Positions 47,106-51,265 of a DNA stretch of 64,000 nucleotides are shown in pieces. The notes beneath the pieces are model-generated. The model worked only from the letters and a program-made list of their open reading frames with translations. It was not told where the DNA came from and searched no databases. The translations under genes were made by a program, and so were the position numbers. How positions within the stretch are numbered: position 1 is the stretch's first letter; every line of letters begins with the position of its first letter. The stretch comes from Flavobacteriia bacterium (GTDB lineage Bacteria > Bacteroidota > Bacteroidia > Flavobacteriales_D > Crocinitomicaceae): contig CANHQP010000008.1 in assembly GCA_947462925.1 (NCBI GenBank), positions 1-64,000 of the forward strand. The letters are read 5' to 3'.

Positions 47106-48191
47106 CTATTTCACGAAATTCTTCATTGAAACACCCGAAATTGAATTGAGTTGAATCATGTACGATCCACTTTTCAAACTAGAAACATCAACCATTTGCT
47201 GCGCGCCATTGGCAAGTTTTCCATTCAAAATCAATTTTCCATCTGTTGAGAAAATACTGAAATCATCAAACTTTGTTGGAGATTGAATCACCATCAAATC
47301 TTGCACTGGATTTGGGTAAATTGAAACAGAAATCATTTCATTCTCCTTTATTCCAACGACGTAGTCATTTTTATATTCTACAGAAGTTACTGTTTCACTT
47401 CCTTGCGTAACGCTTGTTTTAACTAACAAAATCGGTTCTTTTTCTTCAACAGCTCTCCATTCATATTCGTGACTTTCAGGAACAGGAATTGGGACCCAAA
47501 ATGCAAAACCATTGAAAGAAACATAAAATGAATCAGACTCAGTAATTCTATGGTGAATTCTCAAAGCTTCGAAAGAGCCCAAAGGCGTTGTAATTTGTCC
47601 CCAACCATCCACATCCGTTTGACGCGTTCTATGTTGAATCCAAATTCCATCGTAAATAGGATTTAAATCCAATTTGGTATACCCTCTCGAAAAGTGCGTA
47701 TTCCCGTACTCAAGAGGGAACTTGTATTTCGTTTCAATCGTATCTGATTTAGCAGGAATTTCTTGACCATTCACCGACAATTTCAATCCAACCATGGTCA
47801 GGGAATCCGTTCTTAATTTATAAAATTGACTGATATCTGAAATCGTAATAGGCAATTGTGCTGGTAAATTATTCAATGGCAAACCATTTGTAGCCACATA
47901 ATAAGAAGCCCTGTAATTTTGTGGAACGGCACTTCCAAAAACAAATTGAATATACAAACCTGCTGAAGTTACTGGTTGATACTCGTTTAATTTTTGGCCG
48001 TTAAATTCTAAATTTGAGAAATCCCAAGTATAATCTGCGCCAGTGGAAATAAAATCCATATTGTTATCAATGACTGCGTCAGAAACTCTGAGCGTATCAT
48101 CTGTTTGAGGTACGTGCGTTGAATTAATAGTAATCTGAGAGAATCCCAGGAATGAAAAGCCAATCATGGAGAGTAGTAGACATTTTTTCAT
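47106..48191 (-). CDS. Secreted protein with T9SS type A sorting domain
   Basis: The 361 residues have a signal peptide (MKKCLLLSMIGFSFLGFSQ), a beta-rich middle of unrecognised type (with YTWDFSNLEFNG near residue 55), and a C-terminal type A sorting domain from about residue 282 (ISVSIYPNPVQDLMV through SGSYMIQLNS). T9SS will export it and attach or release it at the surface. It has its own -7 box (48222-48215), so it may be independent of the upstream lipoprotein gene, which ends 62 bases before its start. The role is unknown. Confidence 0.85.
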   Translation of the reverse strand: MKKCLLLSMIGFSFLGFSQITINSTHVPQTDDTLRVSDAVIDNNMDFISTGADYTWDFSNLEFNGQKLNEYQPVTSAGLYIQFVFGSAVPQNYRASYYVATNGLPLNNLPAQLPITISDISQFYKLRTDSLTMVGLKLSVNGQEIPAKSDTIETKYKFPLEYGNTHFSRGYTKLDLNPIYDGIWIQHRTRQTDVDGWGQITTPLGSFEALRIHHRITESDSFYVSFNGFAFWVPIPVPESHEYEWRAVEEKEPILLVKTSVTQGSETVTSVEYKNDYVVGIKENEMISVSIYPNPVQDLMVIQSPTKFDDFSIFSTDGKLILNGKLANGAQQMVDVSSLKSGSYMIQLNSISGVSMKNFVK

Positions 48192-48214
48192 ATTTTCGAT
48201 TTTATAGTTTTACA

Positions 48215-48222
48215 CAAATATA
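48215..48222 (-). promoter_or_regulatory. -7 box upstream of the T9SS cargo gene
   Basis: On the minus strand TATATTTG (48222-48215) matches TAnnTTTG and sits 23 bases upstream of the start at 48191. No good TTG box was found. Confidence 0.45.
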
Positions 48223-48253
48223 CAATTCATTTTTAGATGAATTTTCTTATTAG

Positions 48254-49336
48254 TTATTTCAATGAAATTCCGAATGAAAGATCCAAATCTAAAGGAATGA
48301 TAGCAAGAGAAGCATTGCTTTTCAAATTTACATGCACATGTCCTTTCAGGATGTAAACCTGTTTTCCAAGTGGATTCAATCCAAAATATTTTACTTCATC
48401 CACTATGATTTTATTTCCAGCATTGGGAGTAATATGAGAGAAATAATCAATGCCGTTTTTCCTTACTTTTATTTTTGAGTGAAAATCCCATTCAATTGGA
48501 TAAACTGCGCAAGATTGAGAAAAATCAAAAAAGTTTTTTCCTGTTAAATCGGCATCCACAATAATGCTTCTTAAACTTCTTACTCCGTTCGTAAAAATGA
48601 CTTCCGCTTGTATCAAATGACTTCCGTTTTGAATATATTTATTCAACTGATTCATATCGCTTATCTGCGTACCATTTTGAAACCACTTTACAGACTCTAC
48701 AACACCAACTTGGGGTTCAATCCAAGCCATTAAATTATGATCTTGTCCGATAACAAATTCTAAGTCAAAAAGTGCATTGGGTTTAAATCCAACAATCACT
48801 TCATTACAAAGTGTTTTTTCAGAATAATCAATAAAAGTTATATGTGCGCAAACTTGATATTTTCCTGGGTCGCGAATTTGAAGATTGTCTTCAAAAGGTT
48901 GCATAACACCATCCACTTCCCAATCTATCTTGAGTATATTGGCACTATTTGGTAACGAATCTTTTTTGATCTCGAACAAAGGAGGTTGTTGAGCCAAATA
49001 AGCAAAAGAAATGGTTGATTGATTTGCAAACTCTGGCAATGGAGGATTTTGTATATCTACATCTCCCCCAAAAACTCCAATTTCAATGCTGAATGCCTCA
49101 TTTCCCAAACTTCCTTTGAAAAAATCAATACCATTCAACAAAGCAGATTCTGTAGTCATTACCACATTATCATCACCTGCCCTTAAATTAATAACTTCAT
49201 TTCCAAAAGTTCCTACCGCAGTAAAAACCGGAGTTGAAGAACCTGGAGGGGGAATAATTTCATTTTTCTTACAAGCAGTGAGAATCAGTATCAATGCGAC
49301 TGTAAAAAAACCCGCTATATTTCTGAATTTAAACAT
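48254..49336 (-). CDS. Lipoprotein of unknown function linked to the sigma-factor operon
   Basis: The 360 residues begin with a lipoprotein signal peptide (VALILILTACKKN; Cys at about residue 22). The remainder is beta-rich with Ig- or PKD-like stretches (NILKIDWEVDGVMQPFED, VVESVKWFQNGTQIS) and ends LDLSFGISLK. No known family is recognised. It starts two bases after the stop of the membrane-anchored barrel gene and is almost surely in one transcript with it and the sigma factor. Context suggests it is a partner or sensor of that system at the outer membrane, which is inference. Confidence 0.8.
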   Translation of the reverse strand: MFKFRNIAGFFTVALILILTACKKNEIIPPPGSSTPVFTAVGTFGNEVINLRAGDDNVVMTTESALLNGIDFFKGSLGNEAFSIEIGVFGGDVDIQNPPLPEFANQSTISFAYLAQQPPLFEIKKDSLPNSANILKIDWEVDGVMQPFEDNLQIRDPGKYQVCAHITFIDYSEKTLCNEVIVGFKPNALFDLEFVIGQDHNLMAWIEPQVGVVESVKWFQNGTQISDMNQLNKYIQNGSHLIQAEVIFTNGVRSLRSIIVDADLTGKNFFDFSQSCAVYPIEWDFHSKIKVRKNGIDYFSHITPNAGNKIIVDEVKYFGLNPLGKQVYILKGHVHVNLKSNASLAIIPLDLDLSFGISLK

Positions 49337-49337
49337 T

Positions 49338-50531
49338 TTAAAATTTCATTATTGTTTTTCGAATGGTAATTTGCCCGCTCAAAGGATTATTTCTAATTGT
49401 ACCAACAAACTGAGAATCATCAACTTGATTCATCAACTGCGCACTTAGTTGTATTCCTACATTCCAGCCTTTAGTTAATTCCAATTGGTAACCTAAGCTT
49501 GGTTTCAATCCAAAATGACTTAAACCGACTTTTTGTCCGATGTAATATTCATCTTGGCTTAAATTCCCATTTTCCAACTGTGAAAACCTCATCAAAGAGC
49601 CCGCGATAAAAGTTGGTGCAATACCTAAAGAAAAAGTCTGTCTGTTTTTTCTAAAATCTACACTTACAGGCAATTCTAAGGTGTAAATTTGTTTATAAAT
49701 GAAATTTTGCTCATAATTGGTTGAACCGAAATTATAGACTTTAGATTTTCGATTGATTTCCAAATTGTCAGAAAAAGATGTATTCAAATTTAATCCGGCG
49801 CTGAAACCGAATCCTTGCGGACTGTATTGATAACCAGCACCAATATTGATTGTTGGCATCCAATTGCCCTCACTTGTTTGCATGAAAGACTCACTCAAAC
49901 CTGCCCCCATCTGTAGGAACAATGAATGAGATTTACGTTTCGAAAAGTTGTTTTTAAAATTCGATGAAATCAAAAAGTTTTCTTGCTTGAAAATCGGAGT
50001 TACAGGCAACTTTTGCATCGAAACTAATTCGTAATCTGCTGATTGACTTGGGGAAGCAACTTCATTTTCTTGTACGTTAAATTTGTGCGAAACATCACTA
50101 ATTTGTTCACTTCCATCCAAAACTTCACTACTCGCTAGTTTTTGAAAACTCTTAAATTGAGGATCATTGGTAATGCTTTTAACTTTGTTTGTTTTGCTAT
50201 GTTTGTCTGTAATTTGAATAATTTCTTGTGATTGATTTTTAGTCGTTACATCAGCGGTTTGATGAACTAATTTTTCAATATTTTTGATTTGATTGTAGGC
50301 AGTTTGATTTACATTATTTTTAGTTTCTGCGCCATTTTCAGGGAAAAAGAAAGTTGAAATCAACGCCAAACAAGCAATGGTTCCACCAAAAATCCATCCC
50401 AAACCTTTTTTCTTTTTTGTTTGAGGCAACAACGCTTCCATTTCAGTCCAATAGGATTCCTGAAAAGGCACATTCAGCTGATTTGCTGAATCCTTAAACA
50501 ATTGATCTATATCTTCTTCCGTCCAGTTCAT
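49338..50531 (-). CDS. Membrane-anchored protein with outer-membrane-type beta-barrel; putative anti-sigma partner
   Basis: The 397 residues show three parts. Residues 1-41 are soluble and end in KKKK. A single helix (GLGWIFGGTIACLALISTFFF) spans about 42-62; the basic cluster before it predicts a cytoplasmic N-terminus. After a ~140-residue polar linker rich in Asn, Gln, Lys and Thr, residues ~200-397 are alternating strands with aromatic ends (LFLQMGAGLSESF, LGYQLELTKGWNVGIQLSAQ) ending in Phe (IRKTIMKF), as in PorT-like outer-membrane barrels. It follows the ECF sigma gene with an ATGA overlap (50528-50531), so the N-terminal head may bind the sigma factor. The head has no recognised zinc-binding anti-sigma motif. 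Anti-sigma role is by context. Confidence 0.75.
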   Translation of the reverse strand: MNWTEEDIDQLFKDSANQLNVPFQESYWTEMEALLPQTKKKKGLGWIFGGTIACLALISTFFFPENGAETKNNVNQTAYNQIKNIEKLVHQTADVTTKNQSQEIIQITDKHSKTNKVKSITNDPQFKSFQKLASSEVLDGSEQISDVSHKFNVQENEVASPSQSADYELVSMQKLPVTPIFKQENFLISSNFKNNFSKRKSHSLFLQMGAGLSESFMQTSEGNWMPTINIGAGYQYSPQGFGFSAGLNLNTSFSDNLEINRKSKVYNFGSTNYEQNFIYKQIYTLELPVSVDFRKNRQTFSLGIAPTFIAGSLMRFSQLENGNLSQDEYYIGQKVGLSHFGLKPSLGYQLELTKGWNVGIQLSAQLMNQVDDSQFVGTIRNNPLSGQITIRKTIMKF

Positions 50532-51103
50532 ATAACCATTTTTTGTGGTAAACTCGCGTTCATTTTTTCTAATTTTTCTCTCAACAGTTTTCTAGCAGTT
50601 GACAAATGCCATTTAGATGTCCCCTCTGATATTTCCAATTTTTCACCAATTTCTTTGTGGCTATATCCATCAATCACATAAAGATTAAAGACATGCGCAC
50701 TTACAGCCGGAATTTGGGTTAGCAATTTCATGATAGAAGCACAACCAAAGTCACTTTCCGCATCATTCTGAATAACTTCTGCGTGAAAATCTAATTCTCT
50801 TTCAGTCTCTTTTCCTTGGTAATGTGTGAGGTGTGTTTTTGATTTTCGATATTCATCAATCAAAGTGTTCGTCGTAATTTTTTTGATCCAAGCATTAAAA
50901 TTAACAGCTTCAACATCAATCGTTTCAATTCCTTTAATAATTTTAAGAAAAGCAATATTCAAAGAGGATCTTGCATCTTCATCATTGTTGTGATAACGCA
51001 AACAAAGAGGCATCAAAAATTTGAAACAATACTCATAGAGCTGTTTCTGTGCTTTTCGATCGTTGCTGGCACAAGCTTTAAGTATGTCTGAATTTATGTG
51101 CAT
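50528..51103 (-). CDS. ECF-type RNA polymerase sigma factor
   Basis: Start at 51103 (ATG, MHINSDILKACASNDRK) gives 191 residues; a longer frame from a TTG at 51142 was rejected. Region 2 is at about residues 20-85 (KQLYEYCFKFLMPLCLRYH, FNAWIKKITTNTLIDEYRK). Region 4 is at about 130-180 (YVIDGYSHKEIGEKLEISEG, TSKWHLSTARKLLREKL), with a helix-turn-helix. It should direct transcription of a regulon, probably including its own operon (barrel protein and lipoprotein). The stop overlaps the barrel gene start in ATGA, so the sigma factor and its likely regulator are made in fixed ratio. Confidence 0.92.
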   Translation of the reverse strand: MHINSDILKACASNDRKAQKQLYEYCFKFLMPLCLRYHNNDEDARSSLNIAFLKIIKGIETIDVEAVNFNAWIKKITTNTLIDEYRKSKTHLTHYQGKETERELDFHAEVIQNDAESDFGCASIMKLLTQIPAVSAHVFNLYVIDGYSHKEIGEKLEISEGTSKWHLSTARKLLREKLEKMNASLPQKMVI

Positions 51104-51265
51104 GCCAATTCCAATCTTTCTAATGTTTTCGTTTCCGCGCAAGTTACAATTTTTTTTCTACTTGATTACATTTCGATCTTCACCTGAACTTACAAACGTC
51201 CCCGTTCACTAAATGGTTGGTGAAAATTCAATTTAATATTGCGATATTAGCAACAAATATCAATA

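Follow-up and report, generated by a model that had tools for sequence, protein, structure and literature searches.

A family of dual membrane-spanning anti-sigma factors, Dma, has been described in Bacteroides thetaiotaomicron (Pardue 2026, PMC13088901). In Dma2, an anti-sigma domain at the N-terminus is followed by a transmembrane helix and a long disordered tether that leads to a C-terminal barrel, and the protein is encoded with an ECF21 sigma factor and a downstream gene (PMC13088901). The phenotype of a dma2 deletion requires the partner sigma gene, das2 (PMC13088901). The Dma architecture dates from a 2024 publication and is widespread in Bacteroidota (PMC13088901). A sequence-only reading of the locus studied here had set the same layout against the classic pairing of a FecR-type anti-sigma factor with a separate TonB receptor; as an alternative to that pairing the layout is not new, having already been published as Dma.

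Sigma factors have also been connected to the type IX secretion system (T9SS). In Porphyromonas gingivalis, the CTD protein PorA acts upstream of the sigma factor SigP (PMC7712824). In Flavobacterium psychrophilum, a promoter set named SM6 is induced by low nutrients and by freshwater, and its sigma factor was not identified (PMC9723704). Apart from P. gingivalis, little is known of how Bacteroidota tune the synthesis of T9SS cargo to events at the cell surface. Here we describe an operon found in the window, by which we mean the whole 64,000-nucleotide stretch of DNA that was analyzed. We consider it rather likely that, in this freshwater Flavobacteriales lineage, a self-activating sigma factor is held by an envelope-spanning, Dma-type anti-sigma factor and drives surface cargo.

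A conserved unit of four predicted genes

The operon consists of four genes, all on the minus strand. The first encodes an ECF sigma factor (Das-like; 50528..51103) of 191 aa, counted from its ATG, that matches TIGR02937 (E 4.6e-22), PF08281, and PF04542. As first read, it shares an ATGA overlap with the second gene (49338..50531), which encodes a 397-aa protein that we describe, on the basis of its anatomy, its synteny, and the homology of its head, as a head-TM-tether-beta protein. The third gene (48254..49336) encodes a 360-aa lipoprotein with the lipobox LTAC within LILTACKKNE; the gap that separates it from the 397-aa gene is one base and not two, as had been stated. The fourth gene (47106..48191) encodes a 361-aa T9SS type A cargo protein. 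Its C-terminal sorting domain scores above cut-off (PF18962, E 7e-12; TIGR04183, E 4e-9), and its hydrophobic N-terminus was judged by eye only.

We found that the sigma and head-barrel genes have the same order and strand in 21 loci, one per genome, of the family, with sigma orthologues in 20 genomes sharing 52-97% identity. Because it is syntenic across 21 genomes, the arrangement is not due to chance. The lipoprotein gene is present in 18 of the 21 loci, and among these 21 it was not found in the Fluviicola loci. The T9SS cargo gene, which had been assigned to the cluster from the window alone, keeps its position in 20/21. In three further genera, the sigma, head-barrel, and lipoprotein genes adjoin the same divergent histidine-phosphatase-like gene. 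These data show that the genes predicted to encode the sigma factor, the head-TM-tether-beta protein, the lipoprotein, and the T9SS cargo are a conserved same-strand unit.

Two members of the operon are less well defined. The start of the sigma gene is ambiguous (51103-51146), as a TTG lies 13 codons upstream of the ATG at a distance of 39 nt that is fixed in most orthologues, and in three orthologues (L037, L040, and L042) the corresponding position holds no ATG. In the lipoprotein of the window, Pfam found no domain; a weak Ig-like match (PF17957) was seen in 3/18 members, and an AlphaFold2 model built from three sequences had a pLDDT of 42. Sequence-profile searches of the PDB returned nothing useful.

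The whole operon is also carried by CAMDFX010000008.1 (locus L002), which belongs to a MAG deposited as Chryseobacterium gleum. This MAG groups in the genus of the window genome, and its label is probably wrong.

The predicted anti-sigma protein and its head

The 397-aa protein divides into four parts, each encoded on the minus strand. Residues 1-41 (50409..50531) make up a cytoplasmic head, which its conservation and a profile-profile match predict to be a sigma-binding domain. The inner-membrane helix, residues 44-62 (50346..50402), follows KKKK, with the top-scoring Kyte-Doolittle window beginning at residue 44. Residues 64-200 (49932..50342) are a low-complexity periplasmic tether rich in N, S, T, E, and K. 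Residues 201-397 (49341..49931) form a C-terminal beta domain that we predict to be an outer-membrane barrel. The mean identity of the orthologues to the window protein is 44% in the head, 28% in the helix, 12% in the tether, and 28% in the beta part, with the head the best conserved of the four. The tether is 139 residues long in the window protein and 128 to 252 in the orthologues, never shorter than 128.

We found strong beta-strand alternation in the C-terminal part in 21/21 orthologues (mean z, 2.9), and the same test found none in the tether. The Pfam family OMP_b-brl was matched only below its cut-off (E 3e-4 in the window protein), with such matches in 6/21 orthologues. Two distant barrel-bearing relatives with a homologous head scored above the cut-off of OMP_b-brl_2. 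The sequence-only reading had proposed a head, a helix, a linker, and a barrel ending in Phe. The helix, the linker, and the beta alternation fit this anatomy. The terminal Phe carries less weight: it is present in the window protein and in only 6/21 orthologues, so it is weak evidence for a barrel.

To follow the head outside the family, we searched a phylum-wide sample with a profile of the 21 orthologues and found 29 loci. An ECF sigma gene lies directly upstream of the head-bearing protein in all 29 of these distant loci, as it does in 21/21 orthologues; the first reading had suggested looking for the pairing across Bacteroidota. In a profile-profile comparison, the heads of the window family and those of sigma-linked proteins of other families matched over 40 columns (99% probability, E 3e-18). 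Seven of the 29 distant proteins (L256, L260, L262, L264, L269, L274, and L277) are short, at about 240-317 aa, and have a head and a TM helix and apparently no barrel; each is encoded directly downstream of an ECF sigma gene. The head can therefore stand alone as a sigma partner, and it seems to be a modular anti-sigma domain.

Some orthologues have more than one head. Three of them (L338:1801-3495, L339:3055-4725, and L340:2132-3703) contain tandem repeats, with a cytoplasmic part of ~150 residues and three or more heads, and a fourth (L043:5231-6694) has two copies. These repeats suggest multivalent sigma binding. If each head binds a sigma factor, the multi-headed Dma variants would be multivalent brakes.

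In a different model, the 397-aa protein is no anti-sigma factor but an outer-membrane protein under regulation whose gene adjoins that of a sigma factor, and its N-terminal helix serves only as a signal anchor. The binding of the head to the sigma factor is a prediction, and the AlphaFold2 model of the protein, built from three sequences, had a pLDDT of 30, which leaves room for this model. We nevertheless regard it as very improbable, as the 40-residue cytoplasmic head is the part under the strongest conservation and is repeated in some orthologues, and heads also occur beside sigma genes in the short proteins described above. We infer instead that the head binds the sigma factor and that the C-terminus is an outer-membrane barrel. 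The proposed link between the outer membrane and the ECF sigma factor through a single polypeptide fits the anatomy and the published Dma family, with these two steps as its inferred parts.

A second ECF sigma-Dma pair (L336:1889-3695) is present on contig C13 of the window's own genome, and a T9SS cargo gene (L336:524-1435) lies close to it. We also inspected a suspected natural fusion of a sigma factor and a Dma protein in genome G179 and found that the two genes are adjacent and not fused.

A promoter element, its putative targets, and its candidate reader

Box pairs such as CCAACC and CGTT are typical of ECF promoters. Upstream of the operon we found a predicted ECF-type promoter, CCAACC-N16-CGTT (51195..51220, minus strand), with the -35 box CCAACC at 51220-51215 and the -10 box CGTT at 51198-51195. 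CCAACC-N16-CGT(T), with a spacing of exactly 16, precedes 19/21 orthologous sigma genes and lies 93-158 nt before the sigma ATG, and the form CAACC-N16-CGT occurs in three more loci. Among the distant sigma-Dma loci, CAACC-N15-17-CGT is found upstream in 6/29, against 0.13 expected. The T9SS cargo gene of the operon, which starts after a gap of 62 nt behind the lipoprotein gene, has no separate copy of the element before it.

A second conserved box, TAACTTGC (TAnnTTGC; 51139..51146, minus strand), lies 43 nt before the ATG. As TAnnTT(G/A)C, it is kept at -43/-44 in 19/21 loci. This box may be a -7 box of the housekeeping type, or it may belong to the context of the upstream TTG start. The SM5 promoters of F. 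psychrophilum have a similar box, TAnnTTGY (PMC9723704).

We searched ten genomes for CCAACC-N16-CGTT, leaving out the operon's own sites and using a sampled reversed pattern as the control. Regulon counts were taken from genome stretches retrieved around the sites. The element was intergenic at 37/56 sites and the reversed control at 3/40 (Fisher p 4e-9). T9SS sorting-domain genes lay downstream of 18/35 intergenic sites that had a gene within 400 nt, compared with 15/253 in the background (p 1e-10). When the targets were collapsed to gene families, 7/17 were T9SS cargo (p 3e-5). One recurrent target, present in seven of the ten genomes, encodes a 344-aa T9SS cargo protein; compared with the sorting domain removed, its N-terminal part is distantly related to the cargo protein of the operon (96%, E 4e-9). 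Further recurrent targets encode a 600-650-aa T9SS cargo protein, a 530-aa lipoprotein, a DUF5777 outer-membrane protein, and a 198-aa ECF sigma factor. The window genome has about 120 T9SS cargo genes, of which just 3 have the strict element upstream, either directly or as later genes of the operon; the regulon is therefore a subset of the cargo and not the secretion system. The operon's own cargo gene, which had been read as the gene that completes the cluster, is more than a neighbor: its position is conserved, and most of the predicted promoters precede other T9SS cargo genes.

In the Fluviicola genus (L092 and L093), two copies of a giant, secreted-looking protein of ~1400 aa lie a few kilobases apart, each after CCAACC-N16-CGTT.

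The same target list bears on whether the Dma/Das pair might be a general sensor of outer-membrane or vesicle stress, a role put forward for the pair in Bacteroides. T9SS cargo genes are common in these genomes, and so their presence among the targets would be incidental under that explanation. Mutants lacking Dma1 or Dma2 release more vesicles and show altered PUL expression (PMC13088901). The putative targets that are not T9SS cargo are the DUF5777 barrel, the 530-aa lipoprotein, another ECF sigma factor, and an LpxD-like gene; of these, the outer-membrane barrels, the lipoproteins, and the LpxD-like gene would suit such a sensor. However, T9SS cargo makes up 18/35 of the downstream genes against 6% of the background, and loci without the lipoprotein gene still retain the cargo gene in the operon. 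We therefore view the stress sensor as a doubtful explanation, and we prefer the reading in which the sigma factor drives surface cargo.

We next compared these genomes with 15 genomes of the same family that have no sigma orthologue (best identity, 40% or less). In the 15 genomes without the sigma factor, of which 11 belong to one genus, the element was rarer than the reversed control (43 versus 118), and in 17 genomes with the locus it was more frequent (165 versus 123); orthologous genomes are not independent samples in this comparison. Intergenic sites accounted for 4/30 in genomes without the sigma factor and 21/30 in genomes with it. The 344-aa cargo gene carries the element in 15/20 genomes with the locus (8/13 plus 7) and in 0/10 orthologues from genomes without the sigma factor. 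Likewise, the gene for the 198-aa ECF sigma factor has the element upstream in 9/18 genomes with the Dma locus and in 0/14 without it.

The last gene suggests another candidate: the element could be read by the 198-aa ECF sigma factor itself, and the window operon would be merely one of its targets. In nine genomes the element stands at a nearly fixed place before this gene (L061:2508-3296 and orthologues), about 160-190 nt from its start, as such a model would allow. But where the Dma locus is missing, the 198-aa sigma gene has no element and the element is rarely intergenic, which makes this model quite improbable. Since the element pattern, the sites of the 344-aa cargo, and those of the 198-aa sigma gene all track the locus, the data point to the Dma-linked sigma factor as the reader of CCAACC-N16-CGTT. 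The element upstream of the 198-aa sigma gene is a possible sign of a sigma cascade. Taken together, the comparisons show that the predicted promoter lies upstream of a few genes for T9SS cargo, lipoproteins, and outer-membrane proteins, and that it does so only where the genome also encodes the sigma factor.

According to our model, the head (residues 1-41) would hold the sigma factor at the inner membrane, and the C-terminal barrel would lie in the outer membrane; the tether, which in every orthologue is long enough to span the periplasm, would let one chain touch both. Some change in the outer membrane, in which the lipoprotein may assist, would free the sigma factor, possibly by pulling, proteolysis, or a conformational change. 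The free sigma factor would activate its own operon and the regulon, and the cell would therefore make surface cargo in response to conditions at its outer surface.

Comparison with known systems

As far as the literature we searched shows, the T9SS-linked operon, the promoter with its small regulon, the finding that these occur together with the sigma factor, and the multi-headed variants are new. They would extend the Dma idea from the control of gut vesicles and PULs to that of T9SS cargo and add variants with repeated predicted sigma-binding heads. How cargo synthesis follows the surface becomes a testable question, since the promoter is defined, its reader and the brake are predicted, and the targets are few; the relatives that carry the locus appear to include a cultured freshwater bacterium, Fluviicola taffensis.

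Like FecI/FecR/FecA, the proposed system has an ECF sigma factor controlled from the outer membrane via an inner-membrane anti-sigma factor. Unlike that system, it joins the head and the predicted barrel in a single polypeptide and has no TonB-dependent receptor of its own; none of the four gene products matched FecR or a TonB receptor. PorXY-SigP/PorA of P. gingivalis is similar in that an ECF sigma factor serves T9SS and a surface CTD protein feeds in (PMC4800418, PMC7712824). There, however, a two-component system activates SigP and the targets are T9SS machinery genes, whereas the predicted targets here are cargo and a predicted anti-sigma factor is encoded next to the sigma factor. The SM6 set shares a CGT -10 box, and its members include T9SS genes and an ECF sigma/anti-sigma gene pair (PMC9723704); in contrast to our predicted cargo regulon, its listed targets are T9SS components.

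The closest system is Dma. The window protein, which we matched to Dma1 and Dma2 by description, resembles them in its predicted sigma-binding head, its single TM helix, its long disordered tether, and its predicted C-terminal barrel, as well as in the adjacent ECF sigma gene, the operon with a downstream gene, and the restriction to Bacteroidota. It differs in its partners, which are T9SS cargo and a lipoprotein that Pfam matches to neither NigD nor DUF4943, and in its predicted regulon, which is T9SS cargo and not NigD1 or PULs. Several of its orthologues also differ from the described Dma proteins in having two or more heads.
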